In this document: positions 497 through 21,623 of the stretch, piece after piece | How positions within the stretch are numbered: the stretch's first letter is position 1 | Layout: each line of letters opens with the position of its first letter | From: Parvularia atlantis | Taxonomy: Eukaryota; Opisthokonta; Rotosphaerida | NCBI GenBank assembly: GCA_943704415.1 | Contig: CALSCO010001384.1 | Location: forward strand, 1 to 30,795 | DNA length: 30,795 nucleotides | Reading direction: 5' to 3' | Program-made: the position numbers and the translations under genes | The notes under the pieces: generated by a model | The model's input: only the letters and a program-made list of their open reading frames with translations | The model's database searches: none | What the model was told of the DNA's origin: nothing

Positions 497-1216
497 ATGC
501 CCGCGAAGGCCGCGTTCGCGTGGCGCGACGCGGACGCGGACGCGGACGGTCGTGACGACGCCGAGGTCGCGGCCTTTGCGGCGCACGTGCTGGGCGCGGC
601 CAAGGAGGACGTACAGTGGGGCCCGCCGACGCTGCCGCCACTGCGCGACGACGCGCTGCGACGCACGCGCGTGCTGCTGTACCGTGCCGCGCCGCCTGCT
701 GACGGCGACGGTCACGCGGCGCTGTCGGGCGACGTGCCACACAGCAGCGCGCCGACGCTCGCGCTGCACTTCGCCAAGGTGAGCGGGCGGGGCAGAGACG
801 CGCGACAGGCGCCCGGACTGACGCCCACGCCAGCCGTGGCAGCGGCAGAAGCGCGACACCGGCTGGGCGGGCGGCTTTGTGGCGCCGGTGCGGTGCATTG
901 TGCCGTTTGCGAGCCTGCGCGTCGCGGCCACGGACGCACTCGTCGAGTGCGGTGAGCAGGTGCACGAGTGCTGGGCGCGCATCACCGCGGCCGTGCGCGA
1001 CGGACGACTGCCGCACTGCACAGCGCACGCTGCGGTGCGCGCACTGGGCGCCGCCCGCGACGCGCTCACGCTCGGGCCGCCGCGCAGACGAGCGAGTTTC
1101 ACCTGTACACGGACGAGCTCTGGGTTGAGATGGTCAAGGACGGGCTGCGTGCGGCGCTCGCGTCGGCCTACGCGATCGACGACGGGGCGCTGTGCACGTT
1201 CAGGCCGGTGTCGTGA
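497..1216 (+). CDS. Unrecognised 198-aa protein, three exons
   Basis: Exons 497-778, 849-1034 and 1088-1216 join in phase 0 to give 198 residues. Introns start GTGAGC and GTGCGC and end CAG, with a CTGAC or CTCAC branch site. The first half is acidic and Ala-rich (DADADADGRDD near residue 11). The second half looks like a folded domain, with short motifs such as DTGWAGGFVAPVRC, FHLYTDELWVEMVKDG and a C-terminal CTFRPVS. No signal peptide or membrane segment is seen. I do not recognise the family. It converges on the arrestin-rod gene, with a CA microsatellite between the two stops. Codon use and intron style match the neighbours, so it is probably a genuine native gene. The second exon contains a further possible donor (955), so the middle of the protein is less certain. 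Confidence 0.7.
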
Positions 1217-1229
1217 CTCGGTAAAGCAA

Positions 1230-1231
<2 letters not shown>

Positions 1232-1311
<80 letters not shown>
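1232..1311. repeat. (CA)40 microsatellite
   Basis: An uninterrupted CA dinucleotide run of about 80 bp sits between the stop of the small plus-strand gene (1214-1216) and the stop of the arrestin-rod gene (1318-1320 on the complement). It therefore lies in the 3' regions of both convergent genes. On the minus strand it is translated as a spurious Cys-Val repeat, which is not coding. Confidence 0.97.
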
Positions 1312-1312
<1 letters not shown>

Positions 1313-1317
1313 CAGCG

Positions 1318-4300
1318 TCACGCCTCGCTGTCGCTCACCACCGAGCGCGAGCTCACGCGCGGGGTCGGGGCGCGGCGCGCGGGCGGGGCGCGCGTGTACG
1401 TCTGCGTCGCGATGAGCGCCCCCGGTGTGTGGCGCGCCGTGACCGCGACCGCACCATCTCGCGCTCGAGCGTCAGGTCCTGCTCGAGTTTGAGCACGCGC
1501 AGCTGGTCCTCGACCTGCCCGACACGGCTGTGCGGCACGTTGACGGGCGCGGCGGCGTTCTTGTTGCTGATGTCGCCCTGGCGGCCGGTAAGCCGATCTG
1601 CCCACTCGCCAGCGCGTGCGGGAGGCGCACCAGGTGCGACGTTGTCTGCAGCACGCGGTTGACGAGGATCTCGAGGCTGCGCTGCACCTGGCTGCTGTTG
1701 CTGCCCTCTCGCGTACGCGACGCCGTCATGACCTTGGTGGCCGCCGACGCCGTGCGGGCCAGCGCGCCCGAGAGGTTGGCGACCCTGTTGTGTGCGCGCG
1801 CACGTCAGCGCTCGCCCACCCTTGCGCGTACATCGACGCACGTGTCCATCGCCTCGCTCACGCGCTCGCCTAGCACGGTCAGGTCCTCGACGCTGGTGGC
1901 CAGGCTGCGCACTGCGTCCACAAAAACCTGCAACGCGGCGTCACGGCCGCGCCGGCGCGGCGATCGAGAGTACGGCGCGCACCGCCGACCAGCTGTCGTA
2001 CTCGCGCTGCTTCACCTCGCGGTCGACGTCGAGCAGCGACTGCGTGAGGAGGAACACCTGCGCGCGCGGCGCGGTCAGCACCGTGCGACCCGTGCTGGCC
2101 GCGCACCTCCTGGTGCCGCAGCGTGGCCTGGGCGACGGCCTGCGACGTGCTCTTGGCAATGACGTACAGGCGATCGATCAGCGGTGAGGGTGAGCCCGCG
2201 ATCTCGACGTAGCCGCGCTCGACCGTGAACGTGCGGCGCGACGGGCTGTGTGAGCGCGTGGGTCGGCAGACGTCACACGCGCCCGCCAGGCCGGCTGTGG
2301 CACCTCGACCGGTGGTTGACAAGCCGCCGGGACACGGCGTCGACGCGCGTCCGCAGAAGACGCAGGGTCTCGTCCGGCGTGCCCGCGAGCGTACGCTCGG
2401 CCTGCGGCGCGTGCTGTCACAGTCGCGTCGACATCGCCAGCCGAGCGCACGTTGCCGCTTCCGCTGCCGGGTGTCGCGAACTGCTGCAGCCTTGTGTCGG
2501 CCTTGCGCGTCTGCTGCAAGAGCACGTCGTCCGGCAGGACCGAGCCGACAACGGCGGCCGTGGCAGAAGCAGTGGCCGGCTTGACGATGGGCGGCGCCGT
2601 CGTGCGCACGGTCGACTGCTCGAGCACGCCGGGCGAGACGAGCGTGCTGCTGATGTGCGTCGAGGGCGAGGCGGCGGGCGCGCCAGTGAGCTGCTGCAGC
2701 TGCATCTGCAGGACGGCGCACGCGTGAGGGGCCGAGCTAGCCGCACACGCCCGCCCGTGCCTGCAGCGAGCTGGTGCCATTCAGCAGGCGCTTGAGCGTG
2801 TCGGCGGCCTCCTGTGCGCCCATGTCGACGTTGCTCTGTCGCGATCGGCCAAAAAGGTCAGGCACTGGCCGCAGTGCACACAGCCGCGCCAGACCTTGTG
2901 CAGGCTGTTGGTCGGGTTCTGGTTGTGCAGCAGCGCGCACTTGAGCAGCCGGATAACGGCGTCGCCCAGCAGCTGCAGCAGCGTCACGTACGCCTGTCGC
3001 ACGTCGTCCTTGTTGATCCCGCCGGCGACCGTCTTGCCGGCCGACAGGATGCGCGGCACGACCGTGCGGTACACCTGCGCGGTGCGCGATCAGGGGCAGC
3101 GGCGGGTGCGGGCGCGGCCGTAGCGCACCATGGCCACGCTCGCGAGCTGCTCGGCTGTGCCCTTGGCAGCGACGGGCGTCTGGCGCAGCGCGCCCGAGAG
3201 GTTGGCGGCCTCGGCGTTGATGGTGTCGAGCGAGTGCTGCAGCACGGCCGGTGCTGGTCGCCACGCGCAGCAGTCAGTCCAGGCGCGGCGGCCGTCTGCC
3301 CCCTTCCGCGCTCACCGACGCTCACGCTTGTCGGCTGCAGCAGCTCCGACAGCGCCGCCGAGATCGCCGAGATCGTTGTCGTGACCTCCATCTTGCCCGG
3401 GTGCAGCATTCTGGCGGCGCCGCTGTCAGCGCCCTTGTGCATACGTCTCACGACGACCCGTACTGAATGTTGTTGTAGCTATTGAGCGCAGCGTCGGCAA
3501 CCGAGCGCAGCTACGAGGCGGTCAGCGGGCGGCGCTCGCATCGCGCACGCACGCACTCGGAAGCGCAGGTCCGGCAGCGACGGGTTGTGCAGCAGGTCCA
3601 AGCCGGCGCGCATCAGCCCGTCCAGGCTGTCGGTGGCCTCTGCCAGCGTCGAAAACAGCGGCTGAGGGAGCAGTCAGCGTTACAAGGACACCTGCAAGGC
3701 CGGGCGCACCTGGCGCTTCTGGTAGCTGGCCTCGTGCGACGCGAGGCGCTGGACGATGCCGATCAGCTGCGTGTGCTCGTTTGCGAGCAGCGTGCCTGTC
3801 TGTGACCGCAGCATCGCGTCGTACAGGCTGCCCGCGAGCCGTTAGGGCCGGGCGGCGCGTTCTCCCTCGTACAACAGCGCACCTCAGGTCGGCCACGAGC
3901 GTCTGCAGCCGCGCCACGGCTGCGTTGACCGTGTCGGTGAGCATCTGGTAGTTCTGGTGCGTGTGTGCGGTTGCGGCGTCAGCAGCGCACACGACGGCGT
4001 CAGGCAGCGCGCACCACGGCCTCCGAGCGCGATGCGTCGAGCGCGGCAACGTTCTCCTCGAAGGGCGCGTTTAGCATGCTGACGACGGTGGCTCGCGCGC
4101 CGCGCACGGCCGCGAGCGCCCTGACAAGGTCCTCGCGAAGCAGCGGCTGGTCGCCGCCGCGCACGCCCTTGTCGCCGCCCTGTGCCGCTGTCAGCCGGCG
4201 GCGTGTGCCACGCACGGGCCGCACAGTCGCGACGGGCGCGCTGCTCGCGCCGGCCGACGACACCACAAGCACGGGCGCGGGCGGCGGCGCCGAGGGCGGC

Positions 4301-5996
4301 TGCATCACGGCAGTTATCACGCCGGCGACGGGCGCGGGCGGCGGCGGCAGGGCGCTTGACGTAGCGGGCGGTGCCAGGGGCGATGACACGGCCAGACCGG
4401 CCACTGTGCCCGCGGCGTTGGCGCTCTCTGCGACGCCCGCGCACCGTCCAGTCGCTGCACTGGCACAGATTCGCACGCGCGCACGCACCGTAAAAGTCCG
4501 ACAGCGCAAACGGGAGGCTAACGATCGTGTCGTGGCCGAGCGAGACGACAGCGTGCACGTTGAGGTAGTACGACACCGTGAGGCCCTTGCTGTGCGCAGC
4601 CCGGGTCGGCTGTTGCCGCGCAGGACGTGCTGCGCGCACCTGCGGCGCACGGGCGCCTCGTTCGAGCGCGTGGACGGCGCAAGCACGGTCGGGTCGTTCA
4701 TGTTGAGCGTGCCTGCGCGGGCGCAGCGGTGCAGCGCACTGGCGGGGATCTCGGGGGTGACGATGTACGTGCGCGTGATGACCTGGTGCCGCCGGATGGG
4801 GCAGCCGTCGCTGCGCACGCGCAAGATGAGCGGGATGATGCGCGCGAGGTATGCCCGACCTGCTTTCGAGGCTGGCCACCTGCGTCTTGAAGCGCTCGAC
4901 GTTGAGCGCCCGCACCGACGCCTCGACGACCTGCTTGGCCGAGATGCGAATCGCGTTGACGTCGTGGTTGCTGTCGTTGGTCAACTCGACGCTGCACGCG
5001 CACGTCAGCCGCACACGTCGTGCGCCTGGTCGGACACGCACTGGACGGCGATCGGCTGCCCGACGCGGTAAATCTCGTGGTCGAGGCGCGCGATCAGCTT
5101 GAGCGGGCGCGTGCTGCCAAAGTATGCCTGTGGGCGCACGTGCCACACGTCACGCCATATGCTACAGGCGACTGCGCGCGCCGCTCGCCTTGGTCGCAGA
5201 GTCTGACGGGGCGATGTCGCGCACGAGCGGGAAGTAGTCGGTCTTCTTGAGGAAGAGCATGGCGACGTGGTGGCGCATGGCTGCGGGCGTGACGAGCGCG
5301 ACGGGCGGCGCAGGTGCTGCTGCGGTGACGATGCTGGTCGCGGGCGCAACGGCCGGCACGACGGCGGTGGCGGACACGCGGCTCGCGACGTACGCCGCGA
5401 CTTCGTAGCTGACACCGATGGGTCGGCCGTAGAAGGCGAGGCCCGGGTTGAGCGTGATCGAGGGCGGGAGGTTGAGCGGCACGCGGAACACAAACGGGAA
5501 GTGGTACTGGTCGGGCAGGACGACCTTGCCCAAGAGCGCGTCGAGCTGCTTGCGCACAGCGCGTCACGGCGCGAGCCGCCCCGGGCGCGATGGGCGCAGC
5601 GCACCTGCGGCCCGGCATCGTCGGGCGTGCGCGGATACACCTGCACGACGTGCTCGTACAGCGTAAAGTCAAGGATGTCGGTGCCGGTCTCGCCGCTCTC
5701 AAAGACAAAGTAGACGTGCAGCGCCGCAAACACGGCTGCGCGCGCCGCGTCACGGGCGCACGGCCGGGCTGCCACGCTGTGCGCACCGTCGTCGGCCGCG
5801 AGCGCCGCTGCCACCTGCGGGTCGAGCCTCACGACGCCCTGGACCGGCTCAATGCCCTGGCCGTGGTCGACGAAGACGCGCTGGTTTCGCGGGCGGCTCA
5901 ACACGCCGCCTGCCGCGCGCGCGCGCGTGCCTTGCGCAGGTAGACCGACAGGACCGCGTCCTGCGAGTGCTTGCCGACGAACGCGAGCGACGGCAT
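1318..5996 (-). CDS. Arrestin-domain protein with a C-terminal talin/Sla2-like helical rod
   Basis: A 24-exon, 1145-residue model. Exons (complement): 5996-5931, 5880-5605, 5545-5189, 5127-5042, 4991-4860, 4810-4640, 4589-4489, 4427-4015, 3953-3883, 3827-3710, 3661-3557, 3510-3452, 3410-3316, 3253-3129, 3074-2895, 2835-2761, 2705-2451, 2401-2310, 2245-2107, 2057-1983, 1927-1842, 1784-1631, 1577-1455, 1401-1318. Residues 1-396 match the visual/beta-arrestin fold: YLRKRVFVDHG, VQGVVRLDP, FVFRVPLNLPPSITLNPG, GVSYEVAAYVA, PLKLIARLDHEIYRVGQPI, IRISAKQ, VSYYLNV and VSLPFALSDF. A Pro/Ala-rich linker (about 398-490) leads without a stop into helices (490-1118) with a Ser/Thr-rich break near 811-895, ending in a coiled segment RVLKLEQDLTLEREM like the end of I/LWEQ modules. 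The tail is basic, then acidic. Arrestins bind receptors or cargo; I/LWEQ proteins bind actin. Three introns are GC-AG. Arrestin identity is strong; the rod family is tentative. Confidence 0.85.
2706..2760 (-). other. GC-AG intron, arrestin-rod gene intron 16
   Basis: The exon ends CTGCAG; the intron begins GCACGGGC, contains CTCAC and ends GTCCTGCAG (55 nt, phase 0). It contains an in-frame stop, so reading through it would end the protein. Confidence 0.7.
5128..5188 (-). other. GC-AG intron, arrestin-rod gene intron 3
   Basis: The exon ends ACCAAG; the intron begins GCGAGCGG and ends GCCCACAG (61 nt, phase 0) with a GTGAC branch-like site. The join leads into the conserved start of the arrestin C domain (PLKLIARLDHEIY). 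Confidence 0.75.
5881..5930 (-). other. GC-AG intron, arrestin-rod gene intron 1
   Basis: On the minus strand the exon ends ...CGCAAG and the intron begins GCACGCG and ends AACCAG (50 nt, phase 0). Using GC as donor gives YLRK|RVFVDHG, which fits the conserved arrestin YLGKRDFVDH motif exactly. No GT donor restores this join. Confidence 0.8.
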
Positions 5997-6084
5997 CGCG
6001 GCGCGGCGACGAAGTGCTGGGCCGGGCAGGGCCGCATGTTGACGTCCGCGCTCACTTGTCACTTTTCGTCGGCCGCGGACGACG
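5997..6084. promoter_or_regulatory. Bidirectional promoter region, arrestin-rod / Ras-BTB
   Basis: Only 88 bp separate the two divergent start codons. The interval holds a TTGACGTCC element (about 6040-6048) resembling a CRE/ATF half-palindrome and a short pyrimidine-rich CACTTGTCACTTTTC stretch. Element assignment is by eye. Confidence 0.4.
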
Positions 6085-8872
6085 ATGCGCGCGTCGGACC
6101 CGTGCGTGCTCGCGCTGCTGAGCGCGGGCGCGGTCGGCAAGAGTGCGCTGATCCAGCGCTTCCTCACGGACGAGTTCTTGGACGTGTGGGACCCGGTGCG
6201 CGCCCGCTCGTCGCGCCCGCTCGTCGCACGCGCGTTTCACTGACCGAGAACGGCAGACGATCGAGGGTGCGCGCGCGGCCGCCGCCGCCCCTTGCGCGTG
6301 CGCCCGGCAGCGTCCGGCTCACTCACACGCTCGCGCTTGCTCGTGCGGCGCAGACTCGTACCGGCGCGTGGTGTCTGTGGGCGGCAAGCTGGTGCTGGTG
6401 CGGGCCGCAATTGCGCGACGGCGTCGCCGCGTCTGACGCGGGCGAGCGACACAGGTGCACCTGCTCGACACCAACGGGCACGACGAGTACCGCGCGCTGC
6501 TGGCGTCGTGGACGGCGCAGAGTCAGGGTGCGCGGGCCCGCCGTGGGCCGCGGCGGCGGCGCTGACGTCGCGCGCTCAGGTGTTATCATTGTCTACGACG
6601 TGACCCGGCGCGTCTCGTTCAACCAAGTCGCGCCGTGCGACCGTCTCGTGCGCGCTCGGCGCGCCGCCTGATGCGCGCGTGGCAGCATCTACCGCAGGGT
6701 GCTCGCGGCGGCCAGCACGGCGTACCGGCTGCCGGGCGTGGTCGTGGGGAACTTTGCCGACCTCGAGCACGACCGCGCCGTGACCGAGAACGAGGGTGTG
6801 CCGTGTGGCCTCGCATACTGGTGTGTGAGCCCAACCGCGCGCGTGCGCACACCACCGCAGGTCGCACGCTTGCGGGCAAGCTGGGCCTGGGCTTCATCGA
6901 GACGTCGGCGCGGACGGTGCGCGGGTGGCCGCCACTTCGACAAGTCTGACATGCGATGCGCGCGCGCCAGGGCCACAACGTGCAGGAGGTGTGCGACCGA
7001 ACGGGGGGCGTGAACGGGGCGCCGTCTGAGCCCTGCACCGCGCAGATGTTTGCGCTGGCGGTCGAGGAGGTCCTGCACTGCATCGACTCGGTGGTGCACG
7101 AGCAGCGGCGCGCGCTCGCGAGCGTGCCAGCGACGCAGTTCCAGCGACGGCGCGCGCTAAGCGAGCAGCTCAAGCGGCTGGAGCGGCGCCAGGTGTGCGG
7201 CTGTTTGTGCGCGCCGTGTGCATACGCGTACTGACGGGCTGCCGCAGAGCCTGCGCGATTTCACGCTCGAGCTCCGTGCGCGGCAGACCGTCTTCCAGAC
7301 ACCGCTGGTGACCGTCGCGCCGTGCACGCTGCGGGACGAGCTTGAGTGGCTGTACCGCGAGGCGCGTGCCAGCGGCTGGACGTGCGTCCCACCACTGCCG
7401 GCGACGCCGCTGCTGCTGTCGTCCGAGGTCTCGGAGGCGGACGAGCAGGACACGCTGGCGTCGTCGCGGCGGTCGTCGACGGGGTCGATGCGCGGGCTCA
7501 AGGGCGTGGACGGCGATGGTGTGCGGCACTCGCCGACGTCGATGCGGCCGCGCGGCAGCTCAGCGGGCTCGGCTTCGATGGCCTCGGCGCCGGAGAGCAT
7601 CGTGGAGGTGCTCGACGACCCGTCGCTGCTTGCCGTGCGCCTGGCGCTGCGGCCCAACGTCGACCTGGTGGCAACGAGCGGGCCAGACACGGCGAGCGTC
7701 TTCCGCGTACACCACGTCGTCGTGGCGGCGCGATGCCCTGTGCTGCTGCGCGGCGCTCAGCGCGCGGGCGACCGCTGGCAGGTGCGCGTGGCCCTGGAGC
7801 CGCGCGCCGTCGACCAGGTTGTGCGGTACCTGTACACGGGTGCGGTCGAGGTCGCGAGTTCGCTCGAGCTCGCCGCGCTCGGGCGTGCCACGCGCGCGCT
7901 CGGGCTGCATGAGTTGAGCCTGAGCTGCGCACTGGCTGCACCGGTGCTGCAGGTGCGCCGCCTGCGCACGCATGGCGAGGCCGTCGTAACGCGCTGGAGC
8001 GCGCAGGACAACGAGCAGCTTGGAATGGTGGGCGCGCTGGCCGTGCGCACCAACGCGCAGACGTTCACCGACAACCTGCGCGACCTGCTGCGCTCTGGTG
8101 CGTGTGCTCCGCGCGCATCGCCGGCGACACGCTGCGGCCGACGGTACGAGGCTTCGCAGGCACGGGGACGGACGTGACGTTCCTCGTCGAGGGCCAGCGC
8201 ATCGGCGCGCACCGCGCCATCCTGATCCTGCGGTCGCCGTACTTCCAGGCACGTGGCCGCGTACTCCCGTGCGCGTGCGTGCTAAGCCGGGGCGCGCGCG
8301 CCTCGCCAGACACTGTTCAAGTGGCACCTTCGTCAGCACGGCGGCGCCGAGCACGCGTTCGTCACGCCGATCCAGCTGGGCGAGGTCAGCCGCGAGGACT
8401 TCCGGCGCGTGCTCGAGTATGCGTACACAGGTGCCGCTGCGCTGCGAGGAGGCGGCGCGTCCTGAGCGCCCGCGCGCGCGCCGTGCAGGGCAAGTGCGCG
8501 CGCTTAACGCCGCGACGGCCGGCTCGCTGCTTGTGGTGGCGGGCATGTACGCACTCGACCGCCTCGTGCAGCTCTGCGAGCTCGAGCTGCAGCGCGTCAT
8601 CAGGACGCCCGCCGAGGCGATCGACGCCGTCGTCGACGCTGACAGCCACGACGCGCGTCAGCTGGTCGAGCACTGCGTCCATGTGCGTGAGCTTCGTTGC
8701 GATCGCGCCGGCTGAGCCGCGCCCGCACCAGCTGCTCGCGTCCGAGTTCCGCAGCATCTGCCACCAACGCGCCTTCTTGCAGCTGCCCGTGGGCCTGCGG
8801 CGGCGCGTGCTGGTCGCGTACCGCCGGCAGGGCGCGGCAACCGAGCAGACTCGCCATGTATCCGCGAGTTGA
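6085..8872 (+). CDS. Ras-like GTPase fused to two BTB domains
   Basis: A 15-exon, 654-aa model: 6085-6195, 6257-6266, 6354-6397, 6455-6527, 6580-6634, 6686-6795, 6861-6916, 6971-6988, 7046-7192, 7248-7952, 8007-8097, 8160-8248, 8310-8430, 8489-8682, 8732-8872. Residues 1 to about 165 are a Ras-type domain: [27 protein letters not shown] (Ras effector loop), [37 protein letters not shown] and FIETSART. Key positions have drifted: the first P-loop glycine is Ser, the Gln61 position is His, and NKxD is NFAD, so nucleotide handling is probably altered. A Ser-rich linker leads to a divergent first BTB (about 324-443) and a canonical second BTB (about 474-565, [19 protein letters not shown]), then BACK-like helices. 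The layout recalls RhoBTB, a Cul3 adaptor, but the switch is Ras-like. No CaaX box: the tail ends HVSAS. Intron 12 is GC-AG. Confidence 0.85.
6257..6266 (+). other. 10-nt microexon in the Ras-BTB gene
   Basis: The exon ACGATCGAGG is flanked by an acceptor (GGCAG) and a donor (GTGCGCG). It supplies Thr-Ile-Glu of the switch I motif DPTIEDSY, and the codon split over its 3' border gives Asp. Skipping it would remove the effector loop core and shift the frame. Confidence 0.8.
8249..8309 (+). other. GC-AG intron, Ras-BTB gene intron 12
   Basis: The exon ends TTCCAG; the intron begins GCACGTGGCC and ends CTCGCCAG (61 nt, phase 0). The join gives [12 protein letters not shown], as expected in a BTB fold (SxYFxxLF). 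The GTGG donor four bases on gives the wrong frame. Confidence 0.8.
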
Positions 8873-12026: not shown

Positions 12027-13418
12027 ATGTCGCTGACCGCGCCCGATCCGGCGACGTCGCCTGTGCCGCGGCCCCGCTCGGCCGCCGTCACAACCTCGCC
12101 CATGCCCCCACTCCGCCGTGCGCACTCGTTCGACGGCGACGACCGCCTCACGCCCGACAGCCCCGCGCGGGACGGGCGCCTGAGCGACCTCGACAACGAC
12201 ATCTGCCCCGTCTGCGAGAAGGAGTGCACCTGCGACCAGCGCATGCCCGCGAGTCAGCGCCGGCGCGACTCGGTGCACCTGCGCCCCATCGACATCTTCG
12301 ATCGGCCCGTCGCGCAGAGCGGCGCCGCATCCAGCGCCCCGCCCAGCCCGACCAAGACGGCCGCGTTCAGCACGCGCCGCGCCACAGCAGCCGCGACGAT
12401 GGCCGCTTCGTCGTCCAGCACCACGGTATCGCTCTCCGGCTCGCCCGCGCCCGCCACGCCCGCGAGCGCTCTCGCGCGCGCCGCCCGCCGTGTGAGCGAC
12501 TCTGCGGCCACCGAGACCGCCACCGCCTCGCCCGCCGCCAAGCTCTCCGGACGACGCACGACGACGAGCGCGTCACCGCGGTCACGCGCCACCGGCCCCG
12601 CCAAGGTCGAGCCGCTGCCAGCCGTCTTTGGCGTGGTCCTGAGCGACATCACCCCGCACATGACCCACAACCCGGCCACGCCCGAGCCCGCGGACGACGA
12701 CGCGATGGAGGACGCCAAGCCGCCGACGATGCCGTCCGGGCGGTCCCATCGCGGGGCGGGCGCTGCTGCCGCCCTGGCGCGGCGCGCCAAGTCGGCGCCC
12801 GGGTCAGCCGTCACGAGCCCGCGGCGCGGCCCGGTCGTGAGCTCGGCCCCTGCGTCGCCGCCGCCGGCCCCACCGGCGCAGGCAGCCGGCGCCAACACCC
12901 GCGGGGCGCGCAACGGCGCTAGCGGTGCTGGTGCAAGCGCGGCCAGCGCCGCCGGCACAACCGAGCAGCGCATCATCCAGTGCAAGCAGCCCGGGTGCGA
13001 CAAGACCTACACGACCATGGCCGGACTGCGATACCATATGAAGACGTTCGACCATACGCGCGTCGGGCCCCCCGGGCGCGCGGCAGGCGAGGGCGCGGCA
13101 GGCGACGACGACGCGGCACGCGACGAGGGCATCGCCAGCGACGACGAGGCCGCCGCGGCCGCACGACGCAAGAAAGGTGCGGCGCGGCCCGCGGTGACCA
13201 AGCCTGCGAGCGCCCGGCCAGCAGTGCGCAAGGGCGGCGCCGTGCGCGAGGCACCGGCTGCGGTCGAGAATGGGCACGCACGTGGCGCCGGCGGGGATGA
13301 CGGCGAGGGCGAGGAGGACGACGACGTGTACGACGACGACGACCCCGCCGACCCGGACAGCATGACGCGCTATGACGCCCTCGTCGCGACCGGCAAGGCC
13401 GCCCGCCGCAGCCGGAGC

Positions 13419-13472
<54 letters not shown>

Positions 13473-14090
13473 CAACAGAGCGGGGCACGCAAGCGATCGG
13501 CCGCGACCATGAACGGGTCCAGCTCGTCGCTCGACCTGATGGGGCCCGGCCAGCTCGCCGGGACGCACCCATCGCAGGCGCGCCGGCGGGCCAACTCGGG
13601 CGCTGCCGGGCCGGTGATCCACTCGTACAAAAGCCAGGGCATGAGCGTCGAGGGCTACACCGCCGCCGACGCTGCCACGCTCTCGTCCGACGACGAGGTT
13701 CTGTCGAGTGCGCTGCGGCGACCCGGGCCGACGCCGTCGCTCGCAGCGGCCGCGCTGAGCAACCGCAAGCGCAAGGGCGGGAGCGGCGGCGGCAAGCACG
13801 GCCTGGTGGGCAAGGGCAAGGGCAAGGGCAAGAGCGCCGCGCAGGACCGCCTCGCGGCGCTGGAGCAGTACCGGGCGCTGGCGAGCGTGCCGCCATCGCG
13901 CGGGAGTGGCTACGACGAGGACGAGGAGGACGTGTTTGTGGACGTGGACGACATGGACGACGACAAGGACCGCGAGATGTTGCGCGGGCTGACCCGTCGC
14001 GCACACGGCGCCGACTCGGACAACAGCAGCCACTCGGTGTCGCGCGAGGACGACGGCGATGCCGACGAGGACGCGGGCGACGACGGCGAG

Positions 14091-15620: not shown

Positions 15621-18600
15621 TCAGTCCGTTGCCCAGATGGGTCTGAACCGGTCATCGCTCTGTTGCGGGGTGTCGAGCTCATCCCGGTCAGCGGCCGAAA
15701 ACTGCCGAAGGCGCGTCGTCCACTCCTCGGTCTCGCCGTAATTGTCCAGCTCGTCCTCGCTGTACTCTCTGTCCAGCAGGCGCGAGTAGCGAAGAGCTTG
15801 ATGTGCATTGTGTGCCCGGTAGTGGTCGCTCGCGGCTTCCTTGAAAAGCTCTTCGAACAGTTTGAGGCACTCGCTGTAGCGTTTGATGCGATACACGCTG
15901 GACTGGCCCGTGTACTTGCTGCGGGAAGCCTCAAATCCGATACACTCGGCCAGCTGGTTGGCTGTCACGGGGCCTTTGAGAACGTCGTAGGCCTTCTTGG
16001 CGCACTCAACAGCCTTAAGAGCGTGCTTGTACGAGATGTTGTTGTGCTCCTCGCGCTTCTGATTTTCATTCACGGCCAAACTTGCACTACGGCGCGCAGC
16101 ATAGCGCTCTACTCGGGCCAGCAGCACATTCATGTGACCCTCATCCACGTAATTATGGAGCTGCTTAATAACCTCGTTCACGCAATCAGGGCCGCGATTG
16201 CCGCTATGATAGAGGACATACTGGACAAGCGGCGTAAACTCGCGCGCACTCGGTAGATGCAGGTTGGTTCCCTCAGCGTCGCCACGCGTAACCAGCAGGT
16301 GTTTCGCGACGTCCCGCATTTCGCGCCCTATAAGGCAGTCGGAGAGAGTCTTGGCGGCGGTGCCAAACACAACGCAAATCGTCGCAACAGCCTTGACCGG
16401 CATCGACGACTCAGACATGTCGTCGGCGATCGAGGTCCAGTCCACAAAGTGCAAGGTGTGCAGGATGAGACGGGCAAAATAAGGGTGGACGATGGACACT
16501 TGCGTCTCTTGCGTCTCTTCGTCATCATGCAGATCAAGGAGATGGCGGGCCTGAACACACTTGTCAAAGAAGATCTCCTCGGCAAGCCTGCGGCGTGCCG
16601 CTGAGAGCGGCAGGCGGCGATGTTCACGCAACGGGGCGAAAGCCGAGACGAATGCCACAGCGGTGAGAAAGTTGCGAGCGACATCGCTAAGGTCCCGTGT
16701 CATCCGCTCGACCATAGCGATCGCACGCTCGTGTACTCCTTGCTTGGCCGTAAGTGCAAAAATGAAGATGTGCCTATCGTACATGTTTGCATGCGCTCGA
16801 AGAGCCACGTCTTTGGCCTTGTTAAGCTCGGCCGACGCGCTTTCGTAGTGGTTCACGAAGACGTTGCAGACTTTGGTCACGTCAGTGCTTGTCCCAAGGA
16901 ACGGAGCAAAGGGGAAGCTTCCGTCCGCTGTGTCGGTGGACGCATACGCCATGCGTGCAGACAAAATCAGCACCTGCAAGCCAGCTGCCACACCTTGCTG
17001 GTGCACAAAGTCGGCCATTGCGTCTTCCAGCTGCTCATCAGCGACGATGACAATCCATCGGCGCTTGTTCTGTTTGGCCAGCGTAACCATGTCATTCCAG
17101 GCCATGCTAAGCCTGAGCCCAGCGGGCTCAGGCTTAGCACAGGCCCAAAAGACGAGAGCTGCCGCTACAGTTGTGGCGAGGTCGTACGCCAAGAAGCGGA
17201 GCAACGTCGTGACGCCGCAGCCTTCGGACGATTTGCTGATCACGAAGCGCTCGATCTGCTTGTGCGACGTTTCCAGGCGCGTATGCAGACTGTTTCTCGC
17301 AGCCCTGAAAGAATCGAGCTCTGGAACGACGTGATTTTCGAAGAGAGACCACGACGCCACCTCTTTGCCCTCGAGCCACTGTCGACCGGGTTGCAGTAGT
17401 GCGCCTCTGTTTTGGCTCTCTGCGCGCATGACGAGTTCGGCAAACTGGTTCCAGCCGTACGCGGTCGTGCTGTCGACCAAAATTGCACTTGGTGAGCTGA
17501 CGGAGGGCTTAACGGGACAAAGGCCCCTTAACCACACGTCCACAATGCGGCTGCCTTGAAAGTGTTTAGCCACAGAGTCAAAAATGTTCTGAGCCTCACA
17601 GAGGTCGGCAGACTCCAGAAGCAAGACAATGTTCCACTTGGCCGACGCAAGCGCCGACGCGGTCACGGTCTCGTCAGGTTTCAAGTTTGCCATCATGACT
17701 GTCAGTGTGCGCCAGTCGAACAAAAGATATTTCTCGGCGCTGTGCTTCTTGCGACTCAGTTTCCGCCAGTCATGCACCTTGACGTCGTTCCACCCCTCCC
17801 ATACCATATCTAGACGAATCAAGCGCCCGCCCAGATGGCTGGAGAACTGGTCACGGCTTTGCGAGCCCTCTCCCGGCGGACAAAGCAGTACGTTCATAGA
17901 CGTCGAGGAAATGAGCGCGTACTCGGTATTTGCCGTGACGACGTCGCTGTGCGAGCGCAGATAGATACCCATTGGCTCAAGGGTTTTGGACAAACCATCG
18001 TTAGTCATGTAGGCCTTGGTACCAGAGGCCGAGACAGTTGCGAACCGAACCTGCTCACCCTCACTGCTTAGATCGAGGGCGATCTCCACAATCCAGCGAT
18101 CAAGATTCTCCAGCAGCTTCGTCTTTGGCACAGCCATCCAGCGCGGTTTCGGATCTTTAGGGTTGATTTCAGACGCTACGGCATCGTCCGAGTATTCCTC
18201 AACCGATGATCTAACGTCCTGTGTGCGTGCCACGAAATGCAGCAAGGGCTTCGCGCCATCAGTAGTTTGGGCGACATGCACCATGCCGTTGACGTCGTCG
18301 ACGACCGCGTTCACCAGCGCTTGAACCGTCTTGCTGTCGTTCAGATTCGTCAAGGGCATGCACACCAGCTCATCGTCGGCGTCCCACTCATCCGGAGGCA
18401 GAGAGCGTAGACGGACCACAACCGAAGACGGCGGTAGAGGTGGGAACAGATAGCGACGCAGCCATCCGGATAGGTTTTCTTTGCAGAAACGCTGAATATC
18501 GTCGATGCTGGACACCGCGCCGAAGGTGAGGCCGTTGTCCAGCACGCCCAAAAGAAGCTCGCTTTTGACGTTGGCGTTGATCAGGCGTGTCAATGATTCC

Positions 18601-19406
18601 CTAAGCTTGTCAATAATGATATCACTCGTGAAGCATAGGCCTGTTGGGTATTTGAACTCGATGGAGGCAGCCTCGTCGCGCGGACAATGTGAAGAATGGT
18701 CAAACGGCTCCCCGTCCTCGACTACAAGCACGCTTTGACGCGCAGTGCCAGCCAAAAAACGCGACACGGCGTCATTAAAGTCAATAGACTTCATGGCGCG
18801 GAAAAAGTCCTGTTTGTCGATTTTTTGCTGATGTGGCCCGCTGCGCGTCCACGGCCCACCTTCCTTCAGCAGGCACACGAAGCCAGCTGGCAAGGCGCGG
18901 ACGGTGATCTCGAGCTCGAAGCGCGTGTTCGCGGCGCTGTTACTGCCAGCCTTTTTCGACTTGTCAGCCGCTGTTTTCGTCTTGGCAGCCGTCGCCTCGT
19001 CAGCCGACGTCGCCTTAGCAGCCGTCGCCGGCTTGCCAGCGGTCGTCGACTTGTTGGTAATGATGGTCGGCGCCAGCGATGATGCAGACGCTGCAGACTC
19101 AGGTTCGGTTGGCACCTTGCGGCAGTACTCCACGACATGCAGCGCACTGAGCGCAGAGCCGGCTGTGCTCGCTGCCTCCCGGGCCTCACGCAGGGTCAGG
19201 GCCAGCGGCGTGCCTTGTGGCGAGCCAATGACGAGGTCTTCGAGCGCCTTATTGACAGCTTGAGTGGCTTCCGTCAGCCCCTTGCCGTTCAAGACGTACG
19301 CGACGGCCACGTTTTGGCCGCTGGCGTTAAGAGACGCGCACACCCAATTTCTGAAGTTCTTGTCCGTGGCAGCGGCATGGAAGGCGAGCGGGGCTTGTTG
19401 CGTCAT
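15621..19406 (-). CDS. SAMD9-like AlbA plus STAND NTPase protein, intronless
   Basis: A single uninterrupted frame of 1261 aa. A Thr/Ala/Lys-rich spacer occupies about 115-160. Residues about 248-305 look like a Schlafen-type AlbA_2 domain: IEFK, then LRESLTRLINANVKSELLLG and VLDNGLTFGAV. EGKEVASWSLFENHVVPEL (about 679-697) precedes a P-loop domain: SSEGCGVTTLLRFLAYDL (726-743), a Walker B-like WIVIVADEQ (784-792) and VLILSAR (812-818). VSIVHPYFARLILHTL and a helical C-terminus with KRYSECLKLFEELFKEA suggest winged-helix/TPR parts. AlbA, STAND NTPase and helical repeats in this order is the SAMD9/SAMD9L plan, and that family also lacks the usual P-loop lysine (here Val732). SAMD9 proteins are animal antiviral factors with bacterial relatives. 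GC content is visibly lower than in neighbours and there is no intron, which suggests transfer or retrocopying. Function in this organism is inferred only. Confidence 0.8.
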   Translation of the reverse strand: MTQQAPLAFHAAATDKNFRNWVCASLNASGQNVAVAYVLNGKGLTEATQAVNKALEDLVIGSPQGTPLALTLREAREAASTAGSALSALHVVEYCRKVPTEPESAASASSLAPTIITNKSTTAGKPATAAKATSADEATAAKTKTAADKSKKAGSNSAANTRFELEITVRALPAGFVCLLKEGGPWTRSGPHQQKIDKQDFFRAMKSIDFNDAVSRFLAGTARQSVLVVEDGEPFDHSSHCPRDEAASIEFKYPTGLCFTSDIIIDKLRESLTRLINANVKSELLLGVLDNGLTFGAVSSIDDIQRFCKENLSGWLRRYLFPPLPPSSVVVRLRSLPPDEWDADDELVCMPLTNLNDSKTVQALVNAVVDDVNGMVHVAQTTDGAKPLLHFVARTQDVRSSVEEYSDDAVASEINPKDPKPRWMAVPKTKLLENLDRWIVEIALDLSSEGEQVRFATVSASGTKAYMTNDGLSKTLEPMGIYLRSHSDVVTANTEYALISSTSMNVLLCPPGEGSQSRDQFSSHLGGRLIRLDMVWEGWNDVKVHDWRKLSRKKHSAEKYLLFDWRTLTVMMANLKPDETVTASALASAKWNIVLLLESADLCEAQNIFDSVAKHFQGSRIVDVWLRGLCPVKPSVSSPSAILVDSTTAYGWNQFAELVMRAESQNRGALLQPGRQWLEGKEVASWSLFENHVVPELDSFRAARNSLHTRLETSHKQIERFVISKSSEGCGVTTLLRFLAYDLATTVAAALVFWACAKPEPAGLRLSMAWNDMVTLAKQNKRRWIVIVADEQLEDAMADFVHQQGVAAGLQVLILSARMAYASTDTADGSFPFAPFLGTSTDVTKVCNVFVNHYESASAELNKAKDVALRAHANMYDRHIFIFALTAKQGVHERAIAMVERMTRDLSDVARNFLTAVAFVSAFAPLREHRRLPLSAARRRLAEEIFFDKCVQARHLLDLHDDEETQETQVSIVHPYFARLILHTLHFVDWTSIADDMSESSMPVKAVATICVVFGTAAKTLSDCLIGREMRDVAKHLLVTRGDAEGTNLHLPSAREFTPLVQYVLYHSGNRGPDCVNEVIKQLHNYVDEGHMNVLLARVERYAARRSASLAVNENQKREEHNNISYKHALKAVECAKKAYDVLKGPVTANQLAECIGFEASRSKYTGQSSVYRIKRYSECLKLFEELFKEAASDHYRAHNAHQALRYSRLLDREYSEDELDNYGETEEWTTRLRQFSAADRDELDTPQQSDDRFRPIWATD
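17106..17138. repeat. Perfect 15-bp inverted repeat inside the SAMD9-like gene
   Basis: Arms GCTAAGCCTGAGCCC (17106-17120) and its exact reverse complement (17124-17138) flank a 3-nt loop AGC. It encodes the AKPEPAGLRLS segment just after the P-loop helix. The perfect pairing is unexpected for a coding stretch. Confidence 0.9.
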
Positions 19407-19698
19407 CTGTAATGCAGGAGCGCGTTCACGCTACAGTGCGGTGACGACGCAGGCTGGGGGATTGTGAGAGTCAACACCTGACCGGTGACAACGCGCACAA
19501 CGCTGCGCTCCCGGGTGAATAACGCACCTAGTGGTGGTGGTTGGCTTTCAGACGTGCTGCGCAGAGGCGACACGGAGTCTGGTCTGCGCTGCTTTCGTCC
19601 TTATCACGGATCCGCGGCCTTTCAAGGTCAGCCGCACCTGCTGCTGGTGCGCCGAAACGAGGTGCGCGTCTGGTGTGCCCTAACTGCGAGGTACGGGT

Positions 19699-19843: not shown

Positions 19844-21623
19844 ATGCTGCAGGTCGGGTACCGCGTGGCGTACCTCGCCGTGGGCCCGCTGGCGCTCGTG
19901 GCGCTCGCGGTCGCGTGGATGTACCTGTGGCAGGTGCTGCCGGTGGCGCTGGTGCTGCTGGGCGCGCGCGCGGTCCAGGTGAACGCGGTGCAAAGAGTGC
20001 GGGAGTTCGAAGCGCTCACGTGCACATCGTGTGCGCACGCGATCCAGGTGCACTGGCGGCGAGCCCAGCGCGACCCGCTGCGCTGGAAGGTGCCCGAGCC
20101 GCAGGCCAAGTCGCTGACGACGCGCGACGGCGTGCGGCTGAGCTACTACGTCGTGCGTGGGCGCACCGAACAGGTCGTAATGATCGCGCCAGGCCTGTTC
20201 GTTCCGTGGGCGTGGGCGCAGCGCGGGCGTGGGCGTGGGCGCTCACACGCTCGCTCGGCAGCGGCTGCTCGTCCACATTCCGCCTCTGGGCCGCGCCGCT
20301 GATGCACCGGCTGTCGGACCGGTACACGTACATCTACTGGGTGCGCAGTCGGCGTGCGCAATTGGCTCTTGCTCGCCTGCGCCTGACCGGGGGCGCCTGG
20401 CCGGCGGGCAGGACTACCGTGGGCTGTTCAACAGCCAGGGGCCGAAGCGCATCCGGCGCATGTCGATTCACGAGCAGGGTGCGCGCCCGTCGCAGCCGAG
20501 CACGGCGGCCCCTTGACGAGTCTGCGCCGCGGCGCGCATGCAGCCGAGGACCTGTACGAGATCCTCAAGGCCGAGGGCATTCAGACGATCCACATGCTGC
20601 TGGGCCACTCGTGCGTGCTCGCGCGCGGCCCGCCGCACGCGCGCGCGTGAGCCTGAGCGGCGCCACAGGATGGGCGTGCAGGTCGGGCTCGAGTTTGCTC
20701 TGCTGTACCCGGAGCGGGTTGAGCGGCTGGTGCTGTGCAATGGCGGGCACGGTGTGGCGCGACAGATGCAGCGCTGCGGCCGGTCCGCTCACGTCGTTGT
20801 GCGGCAGGCAAGCTGATGTCGTCAGGGCTGCAGCCGCTGTTCCGCGTGCCCGTGGCCGGTCTGGTCATGTACCACGTCATCCGCGTGTTCAAGGACTACG
20901 TGTGCGTGGCCGTGCGGCCGGATGAAGCTGCACCGCTGCTGAATGCATGCGCGCCGTGCAGCATGAGCTTGTCGGACAAGCACATGACCGACTTCATAAA
21001 CATGCCGGTGAACGTGTACGGCCGCCAGGTCCTGCGCCAGCTCGTGCAGCTCTACAGCCTGCTGTTTGGGTCGAAGATGCTGCGCGACGTGCTCGGACCG
21101 ACGTACCTCGAGGTGTGTGTGCGCGTGCGCGCACCGCGGCTGTTTCGCTGACCGAGCGCGCGCAGGACTTTTACGAGACGTACCTGATGATGTGCGTGCG
21201 CGTGTGCGCGGGCCGCTTGTTGCTGACACAGACGCCGCAGGGGCGCGTCCACGCGGCACGCAATCAACTACGTGCGCCTGATCATGGAGCTGGACGCGCA
21301 CAGCATCTACCACCTGCTGCCCGAGATCGACCACCCGGTGCTGATCATCAGCGGCATGTTTGACCCGGTCACGCCGGCGTATCATAGTGCGCGCCCCGTG
21401 AGCTGCGCGCGACCCCGTGCCAGAGCCGCTGATCGCACACGCCGGGGCAGGCTTCGAGATGGCCGAGCTGCTGCCCAACTGCCGCCACGTCATGAGCGTG
21501 TTCTCGGCGCACGTGACGCTGCTCGAGGAGCCGTCGGCAGCGATGCGCGCGATCGAGGCGTTTGCGCAGGACCGCGACCCTGCGCTGCGCTTCAAGCGCG
21601 CGACCTCGAAGGCGTTCTTGTGA
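19844..21623 (+). CDS. Membrane-anchored alpha/beta hydrolase
   Basis: Ten exons (19844-20211, 20262-20340, 20412-20478, 20544-20610, 20669-20751, 20808-20901, 20962-21112, 21166-about 21203, 21241-21386, 21451-21623) give about 421 aa. The N-terminus has a strong hydrophobic anchor (VAYLAVGPLALVALAVAWMY and onwards to about residue 45) preceded by few residues, so a type II or hairpin anchor is likely. LTTRDGVRLSYYV opens the fold, and WDYRGLFNSQGP fits the strand 4 loop. The nucleophile elbow is GHSMG with Ser194; GMFDPVTP supplies Asp357; and FSAHVTLLEEP supplies His385. The triad is complete, so an active lipase or esterase is likely; substrate unknown. The start chosen is the first ATG. 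The intron between exons 8 and 9 is uncertain: a GT donor gives only 37 nt, a GC donor at 21198 gives 43 nt. Confidence 0.85.

Follow-up and report, generated by a model that had tools for sequence, protein, structure and literature searches.

A window of 30,795 nucleotides (the whole stretch analyzed here, contig CALSCO010001384.1 of assembly GCA_943704415.1) carries on its minus strand a spliced gene whose product begins with an arrestin of the visual/beta kind and continues, in one frame of our splice model, through a proline- and alanine-rich linker into a long and presumably helical rod. We lean slightly toward the view that this one gene encodes a membrane-to-actin tether of the talin/Sla2 type, in which the arrestin would replace a FERM or ANTH head. 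The evidence for the gene, for the arrestin, for the junction between the two halves, and for the rod and its C-terminal end differs in strength, and we take these parts in turn.

The gene itself is confirmed. We modeled it by dynamic programming, reading the minus strand in three frames, with splice weights set by hand and codon usage seeded from exon pieces chosen by eye as arrestin-like or helix-like. Because the weights were hand-set and the codons came from the same gene, the evidence lies in the contrast with shuffled sequence and not in the score itself. When only GT introns were allowed, the best gene in the stretch scored 450.7; the highest score among 200 dinucleotide shuffles was 2.1, and the opposite strand gave 18.7. 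The start at 5996, the stop at 1318 and the spliced, minus-strand structure reproduced the span given in a preliminary description of this DNA. The 24 introns measure 23 to 97 nucleotides (nt) each; GT donors occur in 23/24 (GTGCG in 17/24), with intron 1 requiring a GC-AG pair, and AG acceptors in 24/24. Codon usage from the arrestin half predicted the rod half (0.32 per codon in the correct frame, −0.69 and −0.77 in the other two), and codon usage from the rod half predicted the arrestin half (0.34 in frame, −0.48 and −0.94 out of frame). The G+C content at third codon positions (GC3) was 0.92 in each half and 0.85 in the linker exon.

By sequence comparison, the N-terminal third of the protein is with certainty an arrestin of the visual/beta kind, which bears out the arrestin first proposed there. 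Residues 9 to 372 matched chains of beta-arrestin-1 in the PDB (phmmer, E value = 5.7e-35), and all of the 60 PDB matches listed, out of 94, were visual or beta arrestins or constructs thereof. The Pfam families Arrestin_C (E value = 3.1e-5) and Arrestin_N (E value = 1.8e-4) were also matched, both under their cutoffs. The classical polar core, which we take to consist of D26, R169, D290 and D297, is largely replaced: by that numbering, the phmmer alignment places V at D26, A at D290 and P, with an adjacent D, in the column of D297, and R169 appears, as judged by eye, as K where phmmer gave no alignment. The classical phosphate sensor looks largely missing, and the loss of most polar-core residues points to a choice of cargo made by some means other than the sensor used by beta-arrestins. 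Residues ~97 to 107 aligned, at the level of sequence only, with the presumed region of helix I. This helix in the N domain is described as restricted to visual/beta arrestins (PMC2515105). Motif searches found no AP2-type motif and none of the PPxY (PY) motifs of alpha-arrestins; the single clathrin-box match (LLDVD at residue 970) lies within the rod and not in an arrestin C-tail.

In the splice model, the last arrestin strand (ALSDF) leads across intron 8 into exon 9 with the frame unbroken, and a second AG 24 nt downstream of the intron 8 acceptor would, by eye, preserve the frame as well. Intron 8 is the true boundary; the intron at 3954 to 4014 that the preliminary description had taken for the junction is intron 9, which sits inside the rod at residue 514/515. 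Scored by codon usage taken from other parts of the gene, the linker at the start of exon 9 reached 0.039 per codon, with a mean of −0.56 and a maximum of −0.13 in 1000 base shuffles; one antisense frame scored −0.05, so the coding signal of the linker is supportive, not strong. A first splice run had read the linker as a 257-nt intron plus a 15-nt exon, a solution that was dropped when the linker was retained after retraining; both variants, with the linker spliced out or kept, hold arrestin and rod in one frame. None of the signals AATAAA, ATTAAA, TATAAA and TTTAAA occurs on the coding strand of 1200 to 6084. The junction has no AT-rich gap (AT fraction 0.25, longest AT run 4; by comparison, the sequence upstream of the 497 gene has 0.55), which is weak support because the divergent spacer at 5997 to 6084 is also just 0.28 AT. 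A scan of the junction for bacterial promoters and terminators returned nothing and is uninformative for a eukaryote. Overall, arrestin and rod are probably fused in one gene, which would be read as one transcript.

The most serious alternative, which we regard as rather unlikely, is that two genes abut on the same strand: an arrestin ending near 4317 (or at 4000, with intron 9 retained) and a headless talin-like rod starting from an ATG at 4305 (or at 3944). Several results speak for it and against a fusion. The preliminary description had seen no start codon between the halves; ATGs in the frame of the rod in fact lie at 4305, 4077 and 3944, and other splice paths break the frame, for instance one that stops at 4317. 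Before any penalties for starts and stops, one gene scored 457.3, a small advantage of 3.5 nats over the best split (453.8 for 4000/3944; 452.4 for 4317/4305). Moreover, when the same kind of model was run over the whole window, it predicted a minus-strand gene of 78 exons at 21003 to 712 that swallows its neighbors and, on the plus strand, joined neighbors into 497 to 5408. We therefore treat its preference for one gene as a bias toward merging that counts little against two genes, and we used the whole-window run solely for pieces of neighboring genes. On the other side, two genes would leave only 55 bases between stop and ATG in the 4000/3944 split, 11 bases in the 4317/4305 split and ~120 bases in a third (4426/4305, score 445.5). 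The 4000/3944 split would sever a presumed helix, the frame of the linker is open and coding-like, and a separate rod gene would encode a protein with no head. Such a rod would have no membrane end, which counts for the fusion. What stands of the fusion as first described is a single frame through arrestin, linker and rod in the splice model; its exclusiveness does not, as two abutting genes score nearly as well.

The linker leads into ~640 residues of presumed helices. A crude helix-propensity index was mostly favorable across residues ~471 to 1108, except near 801 to 840 and 921 to 940; some arrestin windows score similarly, so the signal for a helical rod is weak. Within the rod, residues ~650 to 785 bear a weak resemblance to talin rod domain R9. 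The best PDB match of a 759-residue part of the protein was talin-1 R9 (2l10, E value = 0.0092), and the Pfam talin rod segment PF21865 was matched at an E value of 0.005 (17.4 bits, below the cutoff of 27). When R9 was scored alone, the real segment reached 19.8 bits and 0 of 4000 scrambled copies attained that score, the best reaching 12.3 bits. A point against this resemblance is that ribosomal L14 matched the linker at an E value of 0.011, nearly equal to that of the talin match. We took the L14 matches to the linker (0.011 to 0.037) as chance or compositional, and likewise the PDB matches to a spike construct (0.085) and DNF1 (1.2). NCBIfam gave no match for the R9-like piece. The talin-like rod originally proposed thus retains an R9-like segment that beats all shuffles, on matches that are weak and below the Pfam cutoff.

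A C-terminal I/LWEQ actin-binding module is plausible but marginal. The predicted order, R9-like segment, I/LWEQ-like segment and C-terminal end, is as in talin, and the block around "..AAS(R/K)" aligned with one single-residue gap. In 20-residue frames chosen by eye, the last helix shared 9/20 identities with SLA2, 9/20 with HIP1 and 2/20 with talin. The number of scrambled tails, among 4000, that equaled the real score was 3 for SLA2, 23 for HIP1, 164 for talin and 1140 for HIP1R. When 10 scrambled or reversed decoys were run against Pfam, none matched a talin or I/LWEQ family (best E values, 0.038 and 0.039).

Weighing against an I/LWEQ end, the Pfam family PF01608 remained below its cutoff of 27.5 bits on the whole protein (E value = 0.0029, 18.1 bits), on two versions of the tail (E values of 0.0037 and 0.0029, the second version having been combined by hand and including some intron residues) and on the rod alone (E value = 0.015). 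This miss is not decisive, because the clear arrestin in the same protein also misses its Pfam cutoffs. However, the 217-residue tail matched TEX47 (E value = 0.0025) and Phage_CP76 (E value = 0.0029) as well as it matched PF01608, so the I/LWEQ E value alone is untrustworthy; we took these two, together with Amidase and further weak Pfam matches, as spurious, compositional or chance. In addition, the tail matched no I/LWEQ chain in the PDB at E values up to 10, and a model built from four I/LWEQ sequences gave 2.6 bits on the whole protein and was equaled by 80 of 4000 scrambled tails. The I/LWEQ-like end that had been noted before is consistent with the domain order, the position and the last helix, but it falls below the Pfam cutoff and is equaled by spurious families.

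The marginal I/LWEQ signal, with its spurious equals and its 80 matching shuffles, speaks for a reading in which the fusion is real and the rod is a generic helical scaffold (R9-like or so by chance) with an end that does not bind actin, making the protein an arrestin scaffold. We hold this to be improbable, given an order and position like those in talin and Sla2 and a last helix as close to SLA2 and HIP1 as described above. That the locus is a misassembly or a nonfunctional gene is very hard to credit: it rests on a single assembled copy, but both halves share a GC3 of 0.92 and predict each other's codons, and the 25-exon model is free of stops. The features of the gene are collected in Table 1.

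Table 1. Position and basis of the features of the modeled arrestin-rod gene in the window
Feature	Positions	Strand	Basis
Whole gene, 25 exons, 1135 residues	1318..5996	-	Splice/codon model, shuffle test
Arrestin N and C domains, exons 1-8, residues 1-376	4489..5996	-	PDB beta-arrestin-1, E value 5.7e-35; Pfam weak
Intron 8, arrestin/linker boundary, GTGCGT..CGCAG, 61 nt	4428..4488	-	Splice model
Pro/Ala-rich linker, first 80 codons of exon 9, residues ~377-456	4188..4427	-	Stop-free, coding-like
Intron 9, GTGCGC..ACCAG, CTGAC inside	3954..4014	-	Splice model; within rod
Talin R9-like segment, exons 14-17, residues ~650-793	2749..3410	-	PDB 2l10, Pfam PF21865, shuffles
Possible I/LWEQ module and dimerization-like helix, exons 21-24, residues 983-1107	1455..2057	-	Pfam PF01608, shuffles
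(CA)n run, 80 bases, just past the stop of the gene	1232..1311		Sequence

Talin holds the integrin tail with a FERM head and Sla2/HIP1R holds membrane lipid with an ANTH head; in both, a rod or coil follows the head and leads to an I/LWEQ end that sits on actin. To our knowledge, the I/LWEQ tethers described so far carry FERM or ANTH heads. The predicted protein is like talin in having an R9-like segment in its rod and, after it, a possible I/LWEQ module at the C terminus. It differs in that an arrestin stands where talin has its FERM head, in the length of the rod (~640 residues here versus ~2000 in talin) and in the ~200 residues that separate the R9-like segment from the I/LWEQ-like end. 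With Sla2, HIP1 and HIP1R it shares the sequence of head, linker or coil and I/LWEQ-type end, and its last helix is closest to SLA2 and HIP1, but it has no ANTH; Pfam searches at E values up to 1 found neither a FERM nor an ANTH domain in the protein. The likeness to visual and beta-arrestins lies in the two arrestin domains across residues 9 to 372, whereas the mostly replaced polar core, the missing AP2 motif and the linker and rod in place of a C-tail set it apart.

Arrestins fused to C2 and FYVE domains are reported from Amoebozoa, and arrestin-associated domains are said to be extremely rare outside protists (PMC2515105). The amoebozoan fusions likewise carry an extra module, but the passages of that paper drawn on here describe neither a helical rod nor a module that binds actin. 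Talins with I/LWEQ are known from fungi (PMC5042518), among them an Orpinomyces talin that resembles our protein in its talin rod with I/LWEQ and for which the Pfam table lists no FERM; it differs in that the table lists no arrestin and in that its I/LWEQ extends as far as residue 2139. Human beta-arrestin-1 and talin-1 associate after endothelin receptor stimulation, as seen by coimmunoprecipitation, glutathione S-transferase pulldown from lysates and proximity ligation assay, and the abstract of the study calls the interaction direct (PMC9886921). A fusion of both would thus have a precedent as a pair. We set aside a report on talin with a receptor (PMC2832758), which in its consulted parts has no arrestin-talin contact; PMC12716839 proved irrelevant to a fusion, and the one occurrence of LWEQ in PMC6912373 is among its cited references. 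In the portions consulted of the open-licence literature on arrestins, talins and LWEQ proteins, we found no report of an arrestin-talin/LWEQ fusion, an absence that is not proof. Searches of viral contigs (with 142 arrestin and 85 rod residues) and of prokaryotic contigs (with 154 arrestin residues) found no relatives, which says little.

If the gene encodes the tether toward which we lean, the arrestin would bind a receptor or some other cargo from its cytosolic side, pull would pass along the flexible linker and the helical rod, and the I/LWEQ-like C-terminal module, dimerized via the last helix, would hold F-actin. Captured cargo would thereby be tied to cortical or endocytic actin by a protein that needs no separate adaptors, and its role may be endocytic or adhesive. 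Whether this amounts to a head swap within the talin/Sla2 class, with a beta-type arrestin and a talin-like actin-binding rod joining receptor capture and actin attachment in one polypeptide, we put at a little short of even.

Beyond the gene, a head-to-head neighbor on the plus strand starts at 6085, 88 bases from the start of the arrestin-rod gene, and extends to at least 8224; it encodes a Ras-family GTPase followed by BTB (Pfam Ras, E value = 4.5e-35; BTB, E value = 6.4e-22), a RhoBTB-like layout. At the other end, the (CA)n run separates the stop of the arrestin-rod gene from a plus-strand stop at 1214 to 1216 in the frame from 497. The interval 497 to 1216 may be a small convergent gene, its end set by eye (the gene finder ran to 5408), and its 182 predicted residues had no Pfam match at 0.001. 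Farther away, an uninterrupted minus-strand frame of 1269 codons at 15624 to 19430 matched an nSTAND NTPase weakly (E value = 2.8e-4, below cutoff). GC content is 56 to 57% across 16 to 19 kb, compared with 69% for the window, and this frame is perhaps an acquired or mobile gene. The window also holds a C2H2-like finger with a polyglutamine run after it (12978 to 13478, plus strand), a kinesin motor gene running down from 30665 on the minus strand (Pfam, E value = 1.4e-108 over the first 440 residues of the prediction), and HMG-CoA lyase-like and MutS genes. Together, the introns and the Ras-BTB, HMG-CoA lyase-like, MutS and kinesin neighbors indicate a eukaryote, in no finer detail.

Published accounts disagree on beta-arrestins outside animals: visual and beta-arrestins are said in one to be specific to metazoan cells (PMC6867901), and another infers that they were present in the ancestor of eukaryotes and later decayed or were lost in most branches, Excavata and Holozoa excepted (PMC4824007), as far as the consulted parts of these sources go. 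Should the host lie outside the animals, the gene would be a case of a beta-type arrestin outside animals and would bear on where beta-type arrestins occur. If the tether is real, the capture of receptors by its arrestin head would be coupled to actin with no intermediates. The protein would then represent a natural fusion of two partners that associate as separate proteins in human cells, an evolutionary counterpart to the association of beta-arrestin-1 with talin-1.

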